Source: Streptomyces hawaiiensis (GTDB lineage Bacteria > Actinomycetota > Actinomycetes > Streptomycetales > Streptomycetaceae). From it: a DNA stretch of 64,000 nucleotides. This document shows positions 16,381 to 26,904 of the stretch, one piece after another; the first letter of the stretch is position 1; each line of letters starts with the position of its first letter. The DNA lies in the NCBI RefSeq assembly GCF_004803895.1, contig NZ_CP021978.1, positions 1,426,001 to 1,490,000 on the forward strand. Reading direction: 5' to 3'. The translations under genes and the position numbers were made by a program. A model generated the notes under the pieces. The model ran no database searches. It had not been told where the DNA came from and saw only the letters and a program-made list of their open reading frames with translations.

Positions 16381-19377
16381 TCAGCCGGCACCGCGCTGGC
16401 GCAGCGCCGACCCGGACCGGCCCTTGACGACCTCCAGCTGGGCGTGGATCCGCCGCCGCAGGTCGGGCACATGACTGACGATGCCGACGCTGCGGTCGCG
16501 TTCGCGCAGGGAGTCGAGGACGTCGAGGACCTCGTCGAGGGTCTGGTCGTCGAGGCTGCCGAAGCCCTCGTCGATGAAGAGGGTGTCCAGCCGCACCCCG
16601 CCCGCCTCGTCCGTGACGACGTCGGCGAGGCCGAGGGCCAGGGCGAGTGAGGCGAAGAACGTCTCGCCGCCCGACAGGGTCGCCGTGTCGCGTTCGCGGC
16701 CGGTCCACGCGTCGACGACGTGCAGGCCGAGCCCGCTGCGGCCGCGGCCGGTGCGGTCGTCGGAGTGGACGAGGGTGTAGCGGCCCGAGGACATGCGGCG
16801 CAGCCGTACGGTCGCGGCGGCGGCGACCTGCTCCAGCCGGGCCGCCAGCACGTACGACTCCAGCCGCATCCGGCGTTCGTTGTCCGCCGCGGTGCCGGCG
16901 GCGAGTCCGGCCATCCGGGCGACGCGGTCGTACTCCTCGCGCAGCGGCGCCAGCCGGCGCACGGAGGCGGTCGCCCGGGCGGACAGCCGGTCGAGTTCGG
17001 CGCAGCGCCGGCCGGCGGCGTCGTGGGCGGAGGCGGCGTCGCGCAGGAACCGGGCCGCCTCGTCGGCCGTCCGCTGTGCCGAGTCCGGGTCGGCCTGCGG
17101 CTCGCGGGCCGCCGCGGCCGTGTCGGCCTCGGCGAGGACGGCCCGTACGGCGGCCTCCTCGTGCTGCCAGGCGTCCAGGCGGTGTTGCAGTTCGCGGTGG
17201 GCGGCGTTGTCCAGGAGGGCGGCGGCCGCGGCCTGCGGCGTCTCGAAGCCGGCGCGGAAGGCGGCGTCGGCGAGGCGGGCGTCGGCGTCCTTGAGCCGCC
17301 GGGCGCTGTCCTCGGCGACGCGGGCGGCGTCGGCGGCGTCCGTGAGCAGCGCGGTCCGCCGCTCCAGCTGTGCGGCCCGCGCGGCGACACTGTCCAGGGT
17401 GCCCCGCGTCCGGTCCAGCTCCTCCTCCAGGGCGGCCCGTTCGCGGTCCAGCCGCTCCCGGTGACCGACCCGGGAGGCGGTCCGTACGGCGGTCTCCTGC
17501 CGGGCGGCGAGGCGCCGTTCGTGCTCGTGTCCGGCCTGCCGCAGCCGCTCCTGCGCGGCGTGCAGCTCGGCGGCTACGCCGCGGGCCCGCACATACTGCT
17601 CCTCCAACTCCGCGAGATCGTGGGCGAGTTGCCCGGTGGGGGTGTCACCTGCCTCCGCGGTGGCGGCGGCCAGTGCCTCCCGTACGACGCCGAGGCGCCG
17701 TTCGTCCTCGGCGCGCCGCTCGTCGGCGCGCTGGTAGGCGGTGAGGGCGTGCTCCTCCGCCTCGCGGTCGACGTGCCCGGCGACCTTGCGGGCCGGGGCG
17801 GGGTGTTCGGTGGCGCCGCAGACGGCGCAGGGGGCGCCGTCGGTGAGGTTCGCGGCCAGTTCGGCTGCGATGCCGTTCAGGCGCTGCTCCTTGAGGTCGA
17901 GCCAGTGCTGCTTGGCCCGGAGCGTCTCGTCCTGCGCGGTGCGGACCCGTTCTACCGCCTGGTCCGTGTCCTGGGCGAGCTGGTCGCGCGTGCGGGCCGC
18001 CCGCAGCCGCTGCTGGGCGGGCTCGCGCCGTACGGCGAGCTGCTCGGCCTGGGCGGCGGCCTGCTGCGCGGAGTCGACCCGCGCCTGGAGTGCGGTGCGC
18101 GTCTCCTCCCAGTCGTCGAGCCAGACCTCCGCCTCCTGCAAGAGGTCCGCGTCGGCGCGCTCCTGGCGGTCCAGGCCCTCCCGCTCGTCGAGGAGTTCGG
18201 CCAGCCGCCGCTCGGCGCGGCGTGCCGAGTCGAGCCCGCCCAGTTCCTCGGCGGCCCGGCGGGCGGCGGCGGCGAGCCCGGCCGCGCCCGCGTCGGCGAA
18301 GGCCTCCGGCAGCAGGGCACGCGCGCGTGCCTCGGCGGCGGCCGCCCGGCGGTGTTCGGCTTCGGAGGCTTCCCGCAGGTCCAGGGCGGGCGCGACCGCC
18401 TCCGCCTTGCGGGCCCGGTCCATGAGCGCCTGCGCCTCCCGGTAGGCGGCGGCTCCCTGCTCCAGGCGCGCCGCCCGTTCCCGTGCCTGGGCGAACCGCC
18501 GCTGGAGCCGGGCCAGTTCGCGGACGTCGTCCAGGGCGCGGCCGGCGGCGGCCTGCGCGGCCTCGGCGGCGGTGAGCGTGCACGCGGCGACGGTGAGCTG
18601 TTCCCGGGCGGTGCTGCGGGCGACGGCGGCCGCGCTCAGTACGGCCTCGGCGAGGCCCGGTTCGCCGGGGGCGAGTTCGGGCAGTTCCATGGCGTCGCCC
18701 GCGGCCTGCTGCATGCGGTGGGCGTCGGCCAGCAGCTCCGTGTCCCCGTCCCGCACCTGTGTCTCGGTGGCGCGGCGGCGCTCGGCGAGGCGCTTTTCGA
18801 CGTCGGCGAAACGGCGGGTGTCGAACAGGCGGCCCAGCAGCTTGCCGCGGGCCTCGGCGTCGGCGCGCAGGAACCGGGCGAAGTCGCCCTGCGGCAGCAG
18901 CACGACCTGGCAGAACTGCTCCCGGCTCATGCCGAGCAGCTGGGTGATCTCCTCGCCGATCTCCTGGTGCGAGCGACTGAGGTCCTTCCAGGCCCCGGCC
19001 GTCGCGTCGTACTCGCGCAGCCACGTCTGGGCCTTGTCCAGGGTCGTGCCGGTGCCGCGCTTCTTGGCGCGCTCCCAGGGCGGCTGGCGGGTGACCTCCA
19101 GGCGTCGCCCGGCGACGGTGAGGTCGAGGGTGACCTCGGTGCGGGTGGCGGGCGCGGCGTGGTCGCTGCGCAGGGTCGTGCCCTGCCCGCCGCCCTGCCG
19201 GGCGCCCGGCACCGAGCCGTAGAGGGCGTAGCAGACGGCGTCGAGGACGGATGTCTTGCCGGCGCCGGTGGGGCCGTGCAGCAGGAACAGCCCGGCTGTC
19301 GACAGTTCGTCGAAGTCGACGGTCTGGGTGCCTCCGAAGGGTCCGAAGGCGGTGACCGCGAGCCGGTGGAGCCTCAC
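16381..19377 (-). CDS. sbcC: Exonuclease SbcC (SMC-like ATPase subunit)
   Basis: 998-residue ATPase of the SbcCD (Rad50-Mre11-like) nuclease that opens hairpins and blocked DNA ends. Walker A GPTGAGKT at 35-42. Long coiled coils flank a zinc-hook CAVC (Cys near 517 and 520). The signature LSGGETF is near 900 and Walker B TLFIDEGFG near 933. GTG at 19377 overlaps the sbcD stop in a GTGA junction, so translation is coupled. Length and architecture are normal for the family. Confidence 0.97.
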   Translation of the reverse strand: MRLHRLAVTAFGPFGGTQTVDFDELSTAGLFLLHGPTGAGKTSVLDAVCYALYGSVPGARQGGGQGTTLRSDHAAPATRTEVTLDLTVAGRRLEVTRQPPWERAKKRGTGTTLDKAQTWLREYDATAGAWKDLSRSHQEIGEEITQLLGMSREQFCQVVLLPQGDFARFLRADAEARGKLLGRLFDTRRFADVEKRLAERRRATETQVRDGDTELLADAHRMQQAAGDAMELPELAPGEPGLAEAVLSAAAVARSTAREQLTVAACTLTAAEAAQAAAGRALDDVRELARLQRRFAQARERAARLEQGAAAYREAQALMDRARKAEAVAPALDLREASEAEHRRAAAAEARARALLPEAFADAGAAGLAAAARRAAEELGGLDSARRAERRLAELLDEREGLDRQERADADLLQEAEVWLDDWEETRTALQARVDSAQQAAAQAEQLAVRREPAQQRLRAARTRDQLAQDTDQAVERVRTAQDETLRAKQHWLDLKEQRLNGIAAELAANLTDGAPCAVCGATEHPAPARKVAGHVDREAEEHALTAYQRADERRAEDERRLGVVREALAAATAEAGDTPTGQLAHDLAELEEQYVRARGVAAELHAAQERLRQAGHEHERRLAARQETAVRTASRVGHRERLDRERAALEEELDRTRGTLDSVAARAAQLERRTALLTDAADAARVAEDSARRLKDADARLADAAFRAGFETPQAAAAALLDNAAHRELQHRLDAWQHEEAAVRAVLAEADTAAAAREPQADPDSAQRTADEAARFLRDAASAHDAAGRRCAELDRLSARATASVRRLAPLREEYDRVARMAGLAAGTAADNERRMRLESYVLAARLEQVAAAATVRLRRMSSGRYTLVHSDDRTGRGRSGLGLHVVDAWTGRERDTATLSGGETFFASLALALGLADVVTDEAGGVRLDTLFIDEGFGSLDDQTLDEVLDVLDSLRERDRSVGIVSHVPDLRRRIHAQLEVVKGRSGSALRQRGAG

Positions 19378-20537
19378 CGGGCCACCTCCCGTACGGTCTC
19401 GTCGGCCCGCACCGCGTCGAACGCGTCGCGCAGCACGGTCTGTTCGTGCGGGTCGGGTCCGGCGCCGCGCACATGGGCGACGAAGTCCTCCGCGATCTGC
19501 TGGTCGCTGCGGCCGGCGAGGCGCCGGGCGTACGACACCTCGGACTCGTCCTCGGCGCGGTCGGGGTCGAAGACGAGGCTGAGCGTGTGCGGGAAGCGCT
19601 CGGTGAGCCGGGCCATCGGGTCGGCCGGGCGGACCGGGTCGGTGAGGGTCGCCTCGACCCATGCCTCCTCGTGCCGTGTCAAATCCGGGTCGGCGAGCAG
19701 GTCCTCCAGCGTGCCCCGGATCCGGGCCAGGGCGCGGGGCACCGGGCAGTCGACGCGCTCGGCGTCCACGGAGCCGTCGGCGGCCAGGTCGACCAGCCAC
19801 ATGCTCTTGCGGTGGGCGGCCTCCGAGAAGGAGTAGGGCAGCGGGGAGCCGGAGTAGCGGACGCGGTCGGTGAGGGTCTGGCAGCCGTGCAGATGCCCGA
19901 GCGCCACATAGTCGACGCCGTCGAAGACCCCGGCCGGTACCGCGGCGACGCCGCCGACGGTGATGTCCCGCTCGCTGTCGCTGGGTTCGCCGCCGGTGAC
20001 GAAGGCGTGCGCGAGGACGACGGAGCGGGTGCCGGGCGCCCGGGTGGCGAGGTCGGCGCGGACCCGGTCCATGGCGGCGGCCAGCACGGCCTCGTGCCCG
20101 GCCTTCGCCACCCCGAACTCGTCCTTCACCAGGGCCGGTTCGAGGTAGGGCAGCCCGTAGAAGGCGACTTCCCCGTCGGCGTCCGCCAGCACCACCGGGG
20201 TGCCGGCCGCCGACGGCTCGGTCCGCAGATGGATGCCGGCCCGCCCGATGAGTCCGGCGCCGACGCCCAGCCGGCGGGCCGAGTCGTGGTTCCCGGAGAT
20301 CATCACCGTCGGCACGCCGAGGTCGGCGAGGCGGTGCAGGGCGTCGTCGAACAGCTCGACGGCGGCGAGCGGCGGCACCGCACGGTCGTAGACGTCTCCC
20401 GACACGACCACCGCGTCGACGGCCCGCTCCCGCACGGTGGTGACGAGGTGGCCGATGAACTCGGCCTGGGCGCCGAGCATGTTCACCCGGTGGAACGCCC
20501 GGCCGAGGTGCCAGTCGGAGGTGTGCAGCAGCCTCAA
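19374..20537 (-). CDS. sbcD: Exonuclease SbcD (Mre11-like nuclease subunit)
   Basis: 387-residue metallophosphoesterase nuclease partner of SbcC. Motifs in order: DWHLGR (near 8), VSGDVYDR (near 46), ISGNHDSA (near 80), AHAFVTGG and GHLHGCQ. These give the two-metal site. TTG at 20537 is the start, with GGAGCGG just before it and the family N-terminus RLLHTSDWHLG directly after. First gene of the sbcDC operon, stop overlapping the sbcC GTG. Confidence 0.97.
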   Translation of the reverse strand: MRLLHTSDWHLGRAFHRVNMLGAQAEFIGHLVTTVRERAVDAVVVSGDVYDRAVPPLAAVELFDDALHRLADLGVPTVMISGNHDSARRLGVGAGLIGRAGIHLRTEPSAAGTPVVLADADGEVAFYGLPYLEPALVKDEFGVAKAGHEAVLAAAMDRVRADLATRAPGTRSVVLAHAFVTGGEPSDSERDITVGGVAAVPAGVFDGVDYVALGHLHGCQTLTDRVRYSGSPLPYSFSEAAHRKSMWLVDLAADGSVDAERVDCPVPRALARIRGTLEDLLADPDLTRHEEAWVEATLTDPVRPADPMARLTERFPHTLSLVFDPDRAEDESEVSYARRLAGRSDQQIAEDFVAHVRGAGPDPHEQTVLRDAFDAVRADETVREVAR

Positions 20538-20852: not shown

Positions 20853-21025
20853 GGATCGGGGGGGCCTACCGCCGGTTCGAGCAGGAGTTCCCCGGCGGCC
20901 GCCTGCTCGATCCGCGGGATGTCGCCGAGGTGATCGCGTTCCTGCTCTCGGGCCGGGCGCGGTCAACGGCGCGAACATTCCCGGGGGACGGCGGACAGAA
21001 CGCGCCGAGCGCCTACGGCTACTGA
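20853..21025 (+). pseudogene. Relic: C-terminus of a short-chain dehydrogenase
   Basis: Reading on the plus strand gives LLDPRDVAEVIAFLLSG, then VNGANI in another frame, then DGGQNAPSAYGY and a stop at 21023-21025. These are consecutive pieces of the SDR C-terminal signature (DPxDVAxxxxFLxS...xxxGxxIxVDGG). At least two small indels are needed to join them: a few bases missing near 20957 and one extra base near 20983. There is no N-terminal half. Non-functional. Confidence 0.72.
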
Positions 21026-21266: not shown

Positions 21267-21893
21267 TCAGGCGTCCCCGTACGCCTCCCCGCCCGGTTCG
21301 AACCCGGCCGTCCCGGCGGTGGCGTCGGCGAGCCAGGACCGGAAGGTGTCCACGTCGGCGTCCGGGAGGGCGATGTCGATCGTGACCGCCTCCTCGTAGC
21401 GCACGCCGCGGACTTCGTGCCCGGTGGTGCGCAGGTCGTTCTCGAGTTTGCCGGCCCGCTGGTGGTCGACGGTGACCGTGGCCAGCCGGAACCTGCGGCG
21501 GGTGCGGGTGCCGAGGGTGTCAAGGGCCTCGCCGACCGCTCCGCCGTAGGCGCGGATCAGACCGCCGGCGCCGAGTTTGACGCCGCCGTAGTAGCGGGTG
21601 ACGACGGCGACGACGTACCGCATGTCGCGGCGCAGCAGCATCTGGAGCATGGGGACGCCGGCGGTGCCGCCGGGTTCGCCGTCGTCGCTCGCCTTCTGGA
21701 CGGAGGCGTCGGCGCCGATGACGTAGGCCCAGCAGTTGTGGGAGGCGTCGGCGTGTTCCTTGCGGACCGTGGCGATGAAGTCCTGCGCCTCCTGCTCGGT
21801 GGCCGCCGGGGCGAGGGCGCACAGGAAGCGGGAGCGGTTGACCTCGGTCTCGTGCACGCCGGCGCCGGCGACCGTGCGGTATTCGTCCTGCAT
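21267..21893 (-). CDS. YigZ/IMPACT-family protein
   Basis: 208-residue protein of the UPF0029/IMPACT family. The conserved core SRFLCALAPAATEQEAQDFI, SHNCWAYVIG, SDDGEPGGTAGVPMLQ and VTRYYGGVKLGAGGLIRAY spans about residues 20-125; a DUF1949-like C-terminal domain follows. Eukaryotic IMPACT regulates Gcn2 kinase; the bacterial role is unsettled. It is the third gene of an operon with a SixA-like phosphatase (27 bp upstream) and a CysS-like protein. Confidence 0.92.
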   Translation of the reverse strand: MQDEYRTVAGAGVHETEVNRSRFLCALAPAATEQEAQDFIATVRKEHADASHNCWAYVIGADASVQKASDDGEPGGTAGVPMLQMLLRRDMRYVVAVVTRYYGGVKLGAGGLIRAYGGAVGEALDTLGTRTRRRFRLATVTVDHQRAGKLENDLRTTGHEVRGVRYEEAVTIDIALPDADVDTFRSWLADATAGTAGFEPGGEAYGDA

Positions 21894-21920
21894 CCGGCCA
21901 GCCTATGCGCGGGCCCGGGG

Positions 21921-22463
21921 CTACTTCTTCGCGCCCCGGGGCACGGTCAGGGACGTGAGCAGCGCGGTGCCGGGGGCGAGGGCGGGCCAGGCCGTGCCGC
22001 GCCAGGACAGGACGGCGATCGCCGAGGTGGGGAACTTCGTACGGACCTGCTCCAGGGTGTCGTCGAGGCCGTCGCCGGCGAGGGCCAGGACCAGTTCCTC
22101 CAGCCCGGGGTTGTGCCCGATCAGCAGCAGCGTCTCCACCTCGGCGGGCACCTCGTGGACGACGGCCAGCAGGCCGGAGGGGCCGGCGGCGTACAGCCGC
22201 CGGTCGTGGCGGACCGGCGGGGGTGTGCCCCACTCGGCGGCGGCCAGGCCCCAGGTCCGGCGGGCGCGTACGGCGGTGGAGCACAGCGCGAGGTCCGGCA
22301 GGAGGTCCGCGTCGGCCAGGGCCCGCCCGGCTGCGGGGGCGTCCCGGCGGCCGCGCGGGGCGAGAGGACGTTCGTGGTCGGCGACGTCCAGGGGCCAGGC
22401 GGACTTGGCGTGCCGCAGCACGACCAGGCGGCGCTGCGGGCCTGCTCCGGCGCGTTCGATCAC
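21921..22463 (-). CDS. SixA-type phosphohistidine phosphatase
   Basis: 180-residue histidine-phosphatase-superfamily protein. The catalytic RHG-like motif VVLRHAKSAW (phospho-accepting His near residue 18) is followed by ARRT and the second catalytic His in LLIGHNPGLEEL. SixA enzymes remove phosphate from phosphohistidine proteins such as PTS components. GTG at 22463 overlaps the stop of the CysS-like gene (GTGA), so the two are translationally coupled. Confidence 0.9.
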   Translation of the reverse strand: MIERAGAGPQRRLVVLRHAKSAWPLDVADHERPLAPRGRRDAPAAGRALADADLLPDLALCSTAVRARRTWGLAAAEWGTPPPVRHDRRLYAAGPSGLLAVVHEVPAEVETLLLIGHNPGLEELVLALAGDGLDDTLEQVRTKFPTSAIAVLSWRGTAWPALAPGTALLTSLTVPRGAKK

Positions 22464-23176
22464 GACGGGGATCCCAGGTCGCGGGTGAGGTCGAGGCCGA
22501 GGAGCCGGTCGGCGTAGGCGTACGTCTCGAACCGGGCGCCGTCGGGCAGGTCCGGCTCGGTCTCGACCTGACGGAGCACGTCCAGCACCCGGGGCACGTC
22601 CAGGTCGTCCTCCCAGGCGTCGCGCAGCCGCCCCCGCACGGCGTCGGGAATCGGCCGTGAGGGCTGCCGTGCCCAGCGGGCGACCGCACCGCGCCAGCGG
22701 GCGAGGGTGGCGCGGGCGTCGTCGAGTCGGGCCGCCTCCAGCCGGACGGGGGCGCTGTGGTGACGGGAGATCAGGGCGAGGCGCAGGGCGGCGGGGTCGC
22801 AGTGGTCCGTCGGGCCCGGCTCGACCGGCGCGACGGCGATCCGTACCCCGTCGGCCACCGCCCCGCCCTCGGCGGTGACATGGACGACCTGGGCCTCGCC
22901 CAGGCCCGCACCGACGTCGGGGCTGTCCTCGAAAGGGCGGATGCCGAGCGTCGCGGCGCCCGCGCGCAGCTCCGGCTGCCGCCGGCCGCCGGTCAGCAGG
23001 GCCCAGACCGGTGTGCCGCCGAGTTCCAGGGTCCGCACGAGCAGGTCCCCGACGAGCAGCACCCGCAGGTTCGTCGTGTCGGAGCCGGGCGCGTGCACCA
23101 CGACACGGGTCAGGCCCCGGCGGGCCGGGGCGGGGTCGACCGGCTCACGGGTTCGGGCGTCGATGATGCGCAGCAC
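22460..23176 (-). CDS. Cysteinyl-tRNA synthetase-like protein without catalytic motifs
   Basis: 238-residue protein that resembles a shrunken CysS/MshC. The start (LRIIDARTREPV) matches the CysS/MshC N-terminus. DPAALRLALISRHHSAPVRL (127-146) matches the conserved stretch right after KMSKS in CysS, and the tail (DAWEDDLDVPRVLDVL, YADRLLGLDLTRD) matches the CysS helical domain. The zinc ligands and HIGH motif are missing, and the KMSKS position reads VRIAVAPV. It cannot be an ordinary synthetase. GTG at 23176; first gene of an operon with SixA and YigZ. Possibly a sensor of a cysteine- or nucleotide-related ligand. Homology is my reading by eye. Confidence 0.72.
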   Translation of the reverse strand: MLRIIDARTREPVDPAPARRGLTRVVVHAPGSDTTNLRVLLVGDLLVRTLELGGTPVWALLTGGRRQPELRAGAATLGIRPFEDSPDVGAGLGEAQVVHVTAEGGAVADGVRIAVAPVEPGPTDHCDPAALRLALISRHHSAPVRLEAARLDDARATLARWRGAVARWARQPSRPIPDAVRGRLRDAWEDDLDVPRVLDVLRQVETEPDLPDGARFETYAYADRLLGLDLTRDLGSPS

Positions 23177-23279: not shown

Positions 23280-24077
23280 TCAGGCCAGCGTGCCCAGGAA
23301 CCGCACATGGGGCCGCCCCTCGGGCCCTTCGCGGCTGACGGCGGCCCGCACCCCGTACACCTCGGCGATGAGCTCGGCCGTGAGGACGTCCTCGGGGGTG
23401 CCTCCCGCCACGACCCGCCCCGCGGACAGTACGACGACCCGATCGCAGTACATCGCCGCGAGGTTGAGGTCGTGCAGGGCGACGACGGTCGTGACCGGCA
23501 GGCCTGTGACCAGGGTGAGCAGGTCGAGCTGGTGGTGGATGTCGAGGTGGTTGGTGGGTTCGTCGAGGAGGAGTTCGCGGGGTTCCTGGGCGAGCGCGCG
23601 GGCGATCTGCACCCGCTGGCGTTCGCCGCCCGAGAGGGTGTGCCAGAGTCGGCCGGAGCGGCCGTCGAGGCCCGTGCGCTCCAGGGCGGCGCGCACGGCC
23701 CGCTCGTCGTCCGCGCAGGCGGGTGTCCAGGCGCGGCGGTGCGGGACGCGACCCAGCCGCACAATGTCCTCGACCGTCAACTCCACCTGGGTGTCCGACT
23801 GTTGCTCGACGACGGCGAGGCGGCGTGCGACCGTGCGGCGGGGCAGGTCGCCCAGCGGTGTGCCGTCGAGGGTGACGACTCCGGAGGTCGGCGTGAGCAG
23901 CCCGGCCAGCAGCCGCAGCAGCGTGGACTTGCCGGAGCCGTTGGGACCGAGGACGCCGACCGTGGAGCCGGTCTCCGGGGCGAGGGCGACGCCGTCCAGG
24001 ATGAGACGCCCGCCGGCACTGCGGCTGACCCGGTCGGCCCGCAGCCCCGCCCCCGCCGTCGCCCCCGCGCCGCTCAC
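23280..24077 (-). CDS. btuD: Cobalamin ABC transporter ATPase
   Basis: 265-residue ATPase of an iron-siderophore/B12 importer. Walker A GPNGSGKS at 44-51, Q-loop VVEQQSD, signature LSGGERQRV and Walker B LLLDEPTNHLDIH. GTG at 24077 overlaps the permease stop in a GTGA junction. Third gene of btuFCD; a cobalamin riboswitch upstream of the operon supports B12 or corrinoid as substrate. Confidence 0.93.
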   Translation of the reverse strand: MSGAGATAGAGLRADRVSRSAGGRLILDGVALAPETGSTVGVLGPNGSGKSTLLRLLAGLLTPTSGVVTLDGTPLGDLPRRTVARRLAVVEQQSDTQVELTVEDIVRLGRVPHRRAWTPACADDERAVRAALERTGLDGRSGRLWHTLSGGERQRVQIARALAQEPRELLLDEPTNHLDIHHQLDLLTLVTGLPVTTVVALHDLNLAAMYCDRVVVLSAGRVVAGGTPEDVLTAELIAEVYGVRAAVSREGPEGRPHVRFLGTLA

Positions 24078-25126
24078 CGCGCCCTCCGCGTCCGGTACAG
24101 CACCGCCACGAACGCCGGCACCCCGATCAGCGACGTCACGACCCCCACCGGAACCTCCTGCGGATCGAGGACCGTTCGGGCCAGGGTGTCCACCCATACG
24201 AGGAACACCGCCCCCGCGAGGGCGGTGACCGGCAGCAGCCGCGTGTGCCCGGGGCCGGTCAGGGCCCGGGCGGCGTGCGGCAGGACCAGTCCGACGAAGC
24301 CGATCGCCCCGGCCGAGCTGACCAGCGCGGCGGTGAGCAGGGCCGTGACGCACAGCAGCACCAGGCGGGTGCGGGCGACGGACACCCCGAGCGCGGCCGC
24401 CGCGTCCTGCCCGAAGGCGAAGGCGTCGAGGGTACGGGCGTACGACAGGCACACCACGAGCGCCACGGCCAGCACCGCCAGGCACAGCCATACGTCGGTC
24501 CAGCCGGCGCCGCCGAGTGAGCCGAGGAGCCAGAACAGCACACCGCGGGTGGTCTCGGCGTCGGCGGAGGTCATCACGACGAAGGAGGTGAGCGCGGAGA
24601 AGAGCTGCATGGCGGCGACGCCCGCGAGGACCACCCGGTCGGTGGTGCCGCCGAGGGTGTGGCTGAGCAGCAGCACCAGCGCGAAGGACAGCAGGGCGCC
24701 GAGGAACGCGCCCGCCGACACCGAGAGGGCACCGCCACCCGCGCCGAGCACGACCACGAGGACCGCTCCGGTGGAGGCGCCCGAGGACACCCCGAGTACG
24801 AAGGGGTCGGCGAGCGGGTTGCGCAGCAGCGACTGCATCACCGCCCCGCACACGGCGAGTCCGGCTCCGCACACGGCCGCGAGCAGGGTGCGCGGCAGTC
24901 GCAGCTGCCAGACGATCCCGTCCCGGATCGGCGTCAGCTGCGAGCTGCCGAGGCCGAGGTGGGCGGCCACGACGGACCACACGTCACCGACGCGGAGGTC
25001 GGCGGGACCGATGGTGAGGGCCACCGCGACGGACGCGGCGAGCGCGACGGCCCCGGCCGCCCCCAGGGCGAGTCCGGCCCCGCGCCGGGGCCGGACCCCG
25101 GCATCCGGCGGACCTTGGGCGGTCAC
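24074..25126 (-). CDS. btuC: Cobalamin ABC transporter permease (FecCD family)
   Basis: 350-residue integral membrane protein with about ten hydrophobic segments. It has FecCD/BtuC family motifs: RLPRTLLAAVCGAGLAVCGA, NPLADPFVLGVSSGAS, and GFVGLVLPHAARAL near the C-terminal half, the last being the ATPase-coupling region. GTG at 25126 overlaps the stop of the binding-protein gene. Forms the channel of the importer with BtuD and BtuF. Confidence 0.94.
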   Translation of the reverse strand: MTAQGPPDAGVRPRRGAGLALGAAGAVALAASVAVALTIGPADLRVGDVWSVVAAHLGLGSSQLTPIRDGIVWQLRLPRTLLAAVCGAGLAVCGAVMQSLLRNPLADPFVLGVSSGASTGAVLVVVLGAGGGALSVSAGAFLGALLSFALVLLLSHTLGGTTDRVVLAGVAAMQLFSALTSFVVMTSADAETTRGVLFWLLGSLGGAGWTDVWLCLAVLAVALVVCLSYARTLDAFAFGQDAAAALGVSVARTRLVLLCVTALLTAALVSSAGAIGFVGLVLPHAARALTGPGHTRLLPVTALAGAVFLVWVDTLARTVLDPQEVPVGVVTSLIGVPAFVAVLYRTRRAR

Positions 25127-26139
25127 TTCACCAGCCCGGACCGGCGCAGCCCGGCGGCCACCTGCTCCACGCCCTCGACGGTGCGGATGGTCGGGTTCAT
25201 GGCCTGCCCGCTGAGCAGCACGTACCGCTTGTGCCGGACGGCGTCCATGTTCCTGGTGACCGGGTTGGACTCCAGGAAGGCGATCTTCTTCGCGGCCGAC
25301 TCGGCGGTCTGCGACTTACGGGTCAGGTCGCCGATGACGAGGACGTCGGGGTCGCGGTCGGCGACCGTCTCCCAGTTGACCTGCGGCCACTCCTCGTGTG
25401 TGTCGTCGAAGACGTTCTTCGCGCCGAGGGCCCGGGTGATGATGCCGGGCGCTCCGCAACAGCCCGCCATGTAGGGCGACTCGGAGTTCGCGAACCAGTA
25501 GAGGAGGGTGACGTCGGAGGCGTCGATGCCCGCCGTGGCCTTCTTCATGCGCTGCCGGAGGGAGGACACGAGCGCGTCGCCGCGACCCTTCACTCCGAAC
25601 ACGGTCGCGAGGTCACATACTTCGCCGTAGACGGTGTCGATGCCCAGAGCCTTGTCGCGTGCGCCGTCACCGCCGCCCGAGTTGTCCTTGCCCGCGCAGT
25701 CGGACGGGGAGACGTAGGTGGGGACGCCGAGCTTCTCGAACTGCTCGCGGGTGGCGACGCCGCCCTTGCCGAGGGTGGAGACGAACGACGCGGCGACGAA
25801 GTCGGGCTCGGCGTCCAGGACGCGTTCGAAGGACGGGGTGTTGTCGGCGATGCGCGGCACCTCGGCGTCGGCCTTCTCCAGCCCCTTCATCACGGGGTCG
25901 GTCCAGGTGGCCGTGCCCGCGAGGCGGTCGGCCAGGCCGAGGGAGAGCAGGATCTCGGTGGTGCCCTGGTTGAGGGACACGGCGTGCCGCGGCGCGGCCG
26001 CGACGCGGACCTCGTGCCCGCAGTTGGAGAGTGTGACGGCGGCCTTCGCGTCGGTGGCCTCGGCGCCCCCGCAGCCGGTCAGGAGCAGGGAGCCGGCCGC
26101 GAGCAGGGCAGCGGCACGGGCGGGTGGAGCGAGGGGCAC
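25123..26139 (-). CDS. btuF: Cobalamin-binding lipoprotein of ABC importer
   Basis: 338-residue solute-binding lipoprotein. A signal peptide ends in lipobox LLTGC (Cys near 23), so it is anchored outside the membrane. The FecB/BtuF fold follows: NQGTTEILLSLGLADRLAG and a PQVNWETVADRDPDVLVIGD stretch near the end of the second lobe. A CCGAP pair of cysteines mid-protein is unusual. GTG at 26139. First gene after the cobalamin riboswitch; stop overlaps btuC. Confidence 0.92.
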   Translation of the reverse strand: MPLAPPARAAALLAAGSLLLTGCGGAEATDAKAAVTLSNCGHEVRVAAAPRHAVSLNQGTTEILLSLGLADRLAGTATWTDPVMKGLEKADAEVPRIADNTPSFERVLDAEPDFVAASFVSTLGKGGVATREQFEKLGVPTYVSPSDCAGKDNSGGGDGARDKALGIDTVYGEVCDLATVFGVKGRGDALVSSLRQRMKKATAGIDASDVTLLYWFANSESPYMAGCCGAPGIITRALGAKNVFDDTHEEWPQVNWETVADRDPDVLVIGDLTRKSQTAESAAKKIAFLESNPVTRNMDAVRHKRYVLLSGQAMNPTIRTVEGVEQVAAGLRRSGLVK

Positions 26140-26475: not shown

Positions 26476-26904
26476 GTGTACGGCGACGAGGCAGCGGTCC
26501 GCAGGATCCTCACCGAGCTCGGCGACACCTGGGCCGTGGTGGGCCTGTCGTCGAACGAGCAGCGGGCGGCGTACGGCGTCGCGGCCGTGCTCCAGCGCTT
26601 CGGCAAGCGCGTCGTGCCGGTGCATCCGAAGGCGGAGACGGTGCACGGGGAGAAGGGGTACGCGAGCCTGGCGGACATCCCCTTCGACGTGGACGTCGTC
26701 GACGTGTTCGTGAACAGCGACCTCGCCGGGGCCGTCGCGGACGAGGCGGCCGCCAAGGGCGCGAAGGCCGTCTGGTTCCAGCTCGGCGTCATCGACGAGG
26801 GGGCGTACGACCGGGCCCGCGCGGCGGGGCTGGAGATGGTGATGGACCGCTGCCCGGCGATCGAGATCCCACGGCTGTCTCATCACCGCGTACAGGAATC
26901 CTGA
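26476..26904 (+). CDS. CoA-binding domain protein (YccU-like)
   Basis: 142-residue soluble protein with a Rossmann-type CoA-binding domain. Family features are TWAVVGLSSNEQRAAYGVA near the start, RVVPVHP and the late AVWFQLGVIDEGA then VMDRCPAIE stretch, including the conserved Cys. GTG at 26476 is preceded by GAGGAGG (26463-26469). It is divergent from the riboswitch-controlled btuFCD operon; a metabolic link is not evident. Confidence 0.9.
   Translation: MYGDEAAVRRILTELGDTWAVVGLSSNEQRAAYGVAAVLQRFGKRVVPVHPKAETVHGEKGYASLADIPFDVDVVDVFVNSDLAGAVADEAAAKGAKAVWFQLGVIDEGAYDRARAAGLEMVMDRCPAIEIPRLSHHRVQES

Follow-up and report, generated by a model that had tools for sequence, protein, structure and literature searches.

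A descendant of a second cysteinyl-tRNA synthetase, without catalytic motifs, encoded beside a SixA-type phosphatase in Streptomyces

Gene layout of the locus

The window, by which we mean the whole 64,000-nucleotide stretch of Streptomyces hawaiiensis DNA that was analysed (positions 1,426,001-1,490,000 of an 8.88-Mb single contig), contains three consecutive genes on the minus strand. The first (22460-23176, GTG start) encodes a 238-amino-acid protein, P1, which derives from a second type of cysteinyl-tRNA synthetase (CysRS) and lacks the catalytic motifs. Its stop codon overlaps the GTG start of a gene for a SixA-type histidine phosphatase (21921-22463), a paralog designated SixA2, in the four nucleotides GTGA at 22460-22463. 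The start of an IMPACT/YigZ gene (21267-21893) follows 27 bp past the phosphatase stop. All of these positions agree with a preliminary description of the locus, which had tentatively joined the three products in one functional unit; we judge IMPACT to lie outside it.

The gene for SbcD (19374-20537, minus strand) is found downstream of IMPACT with or without P1. On the other side of P1 are a FecCD/siderophore-type ABC importer comprising ATPase, permease and binding protein (23280-26139, minus strand) and a gene for a CoA-binding-domain protein (26476-26904, plus strand). Neighbouring genes were predicted with an in-house program of simple design that relies on GC frame. A search for sigma-70-like promoters and terminators between 21050 and 23400, which says little in high-GC DNA, gave none.

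Fold, lost motifs and descent of P1

P1 is homologous to CysRS and to the mycothiol cysteine ligase MshC. This resemblance is not a chance one, because profile matches, a match to MshC in the PDB (E = 4e-6) and the superposition of a structure model all point the same way. Residues 126-207 match the NCBIfam MshC profile (TIGR03447, E = 4.5e-8) at 32.3 bits, below its cut-off of 485; the CysS model gives the only other NCBIfam match, a weak one, and no NCBIfam model scores the protein above its own cut-off. The MshC profile matches all 22 members of the P1 alignment A1, and the CysRS family profile TIGR00435 matches just one of them (E = 0.0055); the window's P1 is absent among the TIGR00435 matches in its own genome. 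At E values up to 1, Pfam returns nothing for the window's P1, and no Pfam family is matched by any of the three P1 proteins scanned.

An AlphaFold2 model of P1, built from 48 sequences of the window or of named loci, has a pLDDT of 89.3 and a pTM of 0.89. Its best structural match is the Borrelia CysS 3sp1_A (VIA-align Z = 23.0, 236 of 238 residues, rmsd 2.6); it also aligns with MshC (Z = 21.4, 224 residues), and synthetases other than CysRS and MshC reach a Z of 15.8 or less. The modeled protein thus has the class I CysRS fold over its entire length, and the aminoacyl-tRNA synthetase ancestry proposed in the preliminary description is borne out by both profile and structure. The alignment extends over the C-terminal helices of CysRS, which presumably include the region that contacts the tRNA stem.

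The elements on which catalysis depends in CysRS are missing from the P1 sequences aligned, as had been noted for the single protein of the window. Not one histidine occurs across the four positions of the HIGH motif in 62 aligned P1 sequences, and neither lysine position of KMSKS holds a lysine in any of 22. The zinc-ligand cysteine and histidine columns of the connective domain are gaps in 22 of 22, and the position of the N-terminal zinc-ligand cysteine is occupied by histidine in 17, cysteine in two and other residues in three. The connective domain itself and the C-terminal anticodon-binding domain are also lacking. From this loss of motifs, P1 is apparently catalytically dead. At three loci the P1 match is longer by about 50-100 codons.

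A profile search with A1 in 345 genomes of the class recovers not only short forms but also matches in long open frames, in many cases of about 440-570 codons, that share a C-terminal block with P1. Eleven of the 15 proteins inspected from this search are long and CysRS-like with an HVGN motif and KMAKS, and we use the name CysS2 for this second actinobacterial CysRS. The two full-length CysS2 proteins scanned each have a CysRS catalytic domain and a CysS_C anticodon domain. P1 and CysS2 share an LR-x5-D-x3-R helix and a C-terminal WR...PS...DLD...GxxFE...DR block. Proteins of this kind score above the CysS cut-off beside canonical CysS in five of the 14 genomes searched, and in all five an MshC-type protein, recognized by motif, is present as well. 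Of 296 genomes drawn from the phylum, only eight give a match with an E value of 1e-25 or lower, and six of the eight belong to the window's genus.

In a tree of 69 sequences and 227 columns, rooted on canonical CysS and with several weak inner nodes, P1, CysS2 and intermediate forms make up one clade (support 99.1/99) apart from CysS and MshC. Stages of the reduction are preserved in another family (f17), in which genes near one shared trio of upstream genes encode two full-length CysS2 proteins (one with KMAES), five intermediates of 347-415 amino acids that have lost HIGH and KMSKS (four of them with the zinc-ligand positions kept), and four short forms of 236-290 amino acids without the connective domain. 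Within f17, short forms and full-length CysS2 nest together (99.8/83), and P1 joins the short forms of family f13 (94.8/97); reduction therefore took place at least two times. The origin of P1 as a reduced descendant of CysS2 is well supported. What had been called a CysS-like protein thus does have the CysRS fold, but its closest relative is CysS2 rather than canonical CysS or MshC.

A paralogous relationship to MshC was considered and rejected, since MshC gives the best profile match yet the tree places P1 with CysS2. MshC resembles P1 in being a CysRS paralog that ends, in the alignment, before the C-terminal tail of CysS. However, it keeps HIGH and KMSKS in all 12 sequences compared, whereas P1 has neither and falls outside the MshC clade. 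Separately, four genomes of other families contain members of a further MshC-like clade (HLGHA, KMAKS), which is placed beside MshC at a weak node.

The adjoining phosphatase

The phosphatase is a His_Phos_1/SixA-like protein with a score against the SixA model TIGR00249 (27 bits) that is below the cut-off of 74.5. In 20 aligned SixA2 sequences R17-H18 and H117 are invariant; an Arg-His pair and a second histidine are the functional residues of histidine phosphatases. The structure model of SixA2, which is of moderate confidence (pLDDT 78.9), shows the SixA fold, with Z scores of 21.8 to 4hbz and 17.8 to 1ujb. The phosphatases linked to P1 fall in the SixA2 group, apart from core SixA (91.7/85), and this group also includes copies that do not adjoin P1.

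Pairing was assessed at 80 named loci, the best 80 of 324 relatives, all from Streptomyces at 64-92% identity, so that the counts describe close relatives. The phosphatase gene lies within about 100 bp downstream of P1 at 76 of these loci, and the two genes overlap by the 4-bp NTGA at 74; the remaining six comprise one shorter gap, three gaps above 100 bp and two loci without a phosphatase match. Beyond the genus, adjacency persists at about 40% P1 identity with order or orientation sometimes changed: the phosphatase is upstream of P1 at three loci and divergent at one. Among the 62 P1 sequences aligned, 26 have no phosphatase next to them. Within the 200-genome family sample, counting was limited to the window's genus, where P1 occurs in 32 of 63 genomes, the window's own included. 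A second SixA is present in 26 of the 32 genomes with P1 and in four of the 31 without (Fisher p = 4e-8, same genus, kinship ignored, tallied by hand from the search tables). Neither gene strictly requires the other, because six P1 genomes have no second SixA and four P1-negative genomes have one.

The pairing of P1 with SixA is real, and the conservation of gene order beyond this strain, on which the preliminary description made its proposal depend, holds for these two genes. The raw correlation of evolutionary distances was discarded as a mark of the pair. It is 0.61 between P1 and SixA2, the same as between SixA2 and SbcD, and 0.56 between P1 and SbcD. Once IMPACT and SbcD are removed, a correlation of 0.37 is left between P1 and SixA2 (0 of 499 permutations, 64 loci), which could be explained by shared inheritance alone. 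A role in defence was also set aside, as PADLOC matched neither P1 nor SixA2, nor the single distant P1 and single CysS2 that were included.

At SixA-less loci, a search for common partners of P1 yields repeated clusters only among close relatives. An mshB-fdxA-dapC region recurs around SixA-less P1 in two genera (g2 and g5), and in a third (g3) four P1 genes have recurring neighbours of universal-stress-like and CBS-like type (clusters c3, c11 and c30). The names fdxA, dapC, universal-stress and CBS were assigned from sequence by eye and are what we take these neighbours to be.

Candidate function and alternative readings

The residues that P1 keeps are mostly those already present in CysS2, and P1 therefore appears to be a folded scaffold rather than a protein with an obvious new active site. 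H28 (codon at 23093-23095, minus strand) stands where CysRS has its zinc-ligand cysteine, and H99 (22880-22882, minus strand) aligns, in a gappy region, with the histidine of the CysRS DIHGGG or CysS2 DVHTGG motif; these positions are histidine in 48 and 49 of the 62 P1 sequences, respectively. Both histidines are present in 31 of 36 SixA-linked and 12 of 26 unlinked P1 sequences (p = 0.002, kinship ignored, linkage list compiled by hand). Because the matching CysRS positions presumably border the cysteine site, it is plausible that the two residues belong to a remodelled ligand or metal pocket.

We are somewhat inclined to read P1 as a pseudo-synthetase from CysS2 that most likely acts as a non-catalytic binding or regulatory subunit of SixA2, with IMPACT as a bystander. 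Sequence, tree and model show that on the way from CysS2 the protein shed HIGH and KMSKS along with its connective/zinc and anticodon domains, while purifying selection preserved a folded core and the helices at the C-terminus. In Streptomyces and several related genera its gene overlaps or adjoins that of SixA2. P1 may use the former synthetase pocket, in which the histidine pair would replace the cysteine/zinc site, to bind a ligand or client, and could so direct or gate the removal of phosphate by SixA2 from a putative phosphohistidine protein. This last role is proposed because the phosphohistidine phosphatase SixA of Escherichia coli acts on NPr and Ndk, according to abstracts (PMC7948535, PMC6282199, PMC12934123). 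A bolder variant, in which H28 and H99 are a ligand or metal sensor or a phosphate carrier whose state SixA2 reads or erases, strikes us as decidedly unlikely; if true, it would amount to a synthetase-derived phosphohistidine switch.

The reuse of aminoacyl-tRNA synthetase paralogs outside normal translation is an established theme, as a review of synthetase-like proteins sets out (PMC9437257). The CysRS* of Desulfobacterales is described as charging the selC* tRNA and as lacking the anticodon domain (PMC7609411); P1 shares this absence but is without catalytic motifs, and its gene is paired with that of a phosphatase. The SixA abstracts mention no synthetase-derived partner. Titles and abstract openings, in a literature coverage that mostly excludes subscription journals, gave no prior description of the P1 family or of its pairing with SixA. 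A 2022 proteomics paper calls the function of SixA in Streptomyces (SCO1809) unknown (PMC9739823), and P1 is a concrete candidate partner for SixA proteins, possibly including that one. P1 is also a case in which a tRNA synthetase has shrunk more than once to a stable protein without its motifs that was then paired with a phosphatase, and in which intermediates are found at one syntenic locus.

A possible, though rather doubtful, alternative is that P1 is a stand-alone protein that binds tRNA, or teams up with canonical CysRS or MshC, does not need SixA2 and is paired with it in Streptomyces for operon convenience. The SixA-less sequences described above, including those in the mshB neighbourhood of g2 and g5, fit this proposal, as does the alignment of the model over the CysRS C-terminal helices. 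However, overlaps at 74 of the 80 loci (the best 80 of 324) together with the co-occurrence exceed what loose co-transcription would lead one to expect. P1 is moreover acidic in most sequences listed, which leaves no obvious nucleic-acid surface, as judged from the charge of P1 alone.

An unlikely reading is that P1 is what is left of CysS2 in slow decay, having lost most or all of its function. The gene evolves faster than its neighbors, with binned median dN/dS values of about 0.36-0.39 for P1, 0.27-0.32 for SixA2 and 0.13-0.21 for IMPACT (2,926 pairs, simple NG86 counts in high-GC DNA). The motifs have been lost repeatedly in the same gene of another family, P1 is patchily present even within the genus (32 of 63 genomes), the choice of the best 80 of 324 loci favors intact copies, and a stop interrupts the P1 match in a genome of another genus. 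The dN/dS values of P1 are nonetheless well below 1, and nine residues (R38, D44, R48, R132, R162, A166, G213, F216 and D223) are identical in all 62 sequences; the confident fold and the conserved overlap also speak against decay. In P1, differences at third codon positions outnumber the average for the first two positions 2.56-fold; the factor for SixA2 is 2.80. P1 is under constraint, weaker than that on its neighbors.

A role for P1-SixA2 in mycothiol metabolism, for example with the SixA-type phosphatase as MshA2 and P1 as a GlcN-Ins-binding helper, is very improbable. Its appeal lies in the local resemblance of P1 to MshC and in the position of CysS2 or P1 at 2.3-10 kb from true mshB in seven genomes, all from genera other than that of the window. 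P1 lies outside the MshC clade, however, and SixA2 is patchy, whereas all 15 genomes searched for MshB have it. A distance of 4.25 Mb separates mshB from P1 in the window's genome, where the mshB locus has no P1 and MshC is the only other match. The genes are on separate contigs in six further genomes, so that their distance is not assessable in four; in the other two, tens of kilobases flank P1. Given the proximity in seven genomes of other genera and the 4.25 Mb here, the mshB region is probably the older home of the CysS2/P1 gene, which in the window's genus is located elsewhere. A further CysS-type gene (L242) is a few kilobases from genes for an MshB-like deacetylase and, by eye, a glycosyltransferase-like protein, a neighborhood that is suggestive of a thiol-sugar biosynthetic cluster.

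IMPACT is the member of the trio whose link to P1 is probably positional. The protein scores 187.9 bits against TIGR00257 (IMPACT_YIGZ), above the cut-off of 167.95, and at E values up to 1 Pfam gives UPF0029, DUF1949 and a sub-threshold EFG_C match, with no RWD domain found. The Gcn1/Gcn2 function of IMPACT needs an N-terminal RWD domain, and the Gcn2 role of eukaryotic IMPACT, which the preliminary description cited, is not supported for this protein. IMPACT is within 1.5 kb downstream of P1 at 73 of the named loci; on the upstream side, a divergent CoA-binding gene is seen at 71 and not found at the other nine (best 80 of 324). Of the P1-negative genomes of the same genus (20 sampled of 31), however, all 20 have IMPACT; inside 1.5-kb flanks SbcD follows it in 15, and the CoA-binding gene, there divergent from IMPACT, is found in 19. 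Because these genes neighbor each other where P1 is absent, P1-SixA, here together with the ABC importer, looks like an insertion between IMPACT and the CoA-binding-protein gene, a pattern on which IMPACT was rejected as a probable operon partner. A three-protein amino-acid or sulfur-status system is hardly credible when the closeness of IMPACT to P1 is its support, the flanking genes are retained without P1, and more distant P1-SixA loci show no IMPACT in the 9-15 kb covered.

The ABC importer, present at 21 of the 80 named loci (best 80 of 324), scores below cut-off against every model that it resembles, both those for F420-0 (TIGR03868/69/73) and the EitA/EitC models for siderophores. Between SbcD and IMPACT, positions 20864-21022 on the plus strand match PF13561 below its cut-off (E = 4e-4) and hold what appears to be a short, frame-broken remainder of the C-terminal part of an SDR/enoyl reductase gene.
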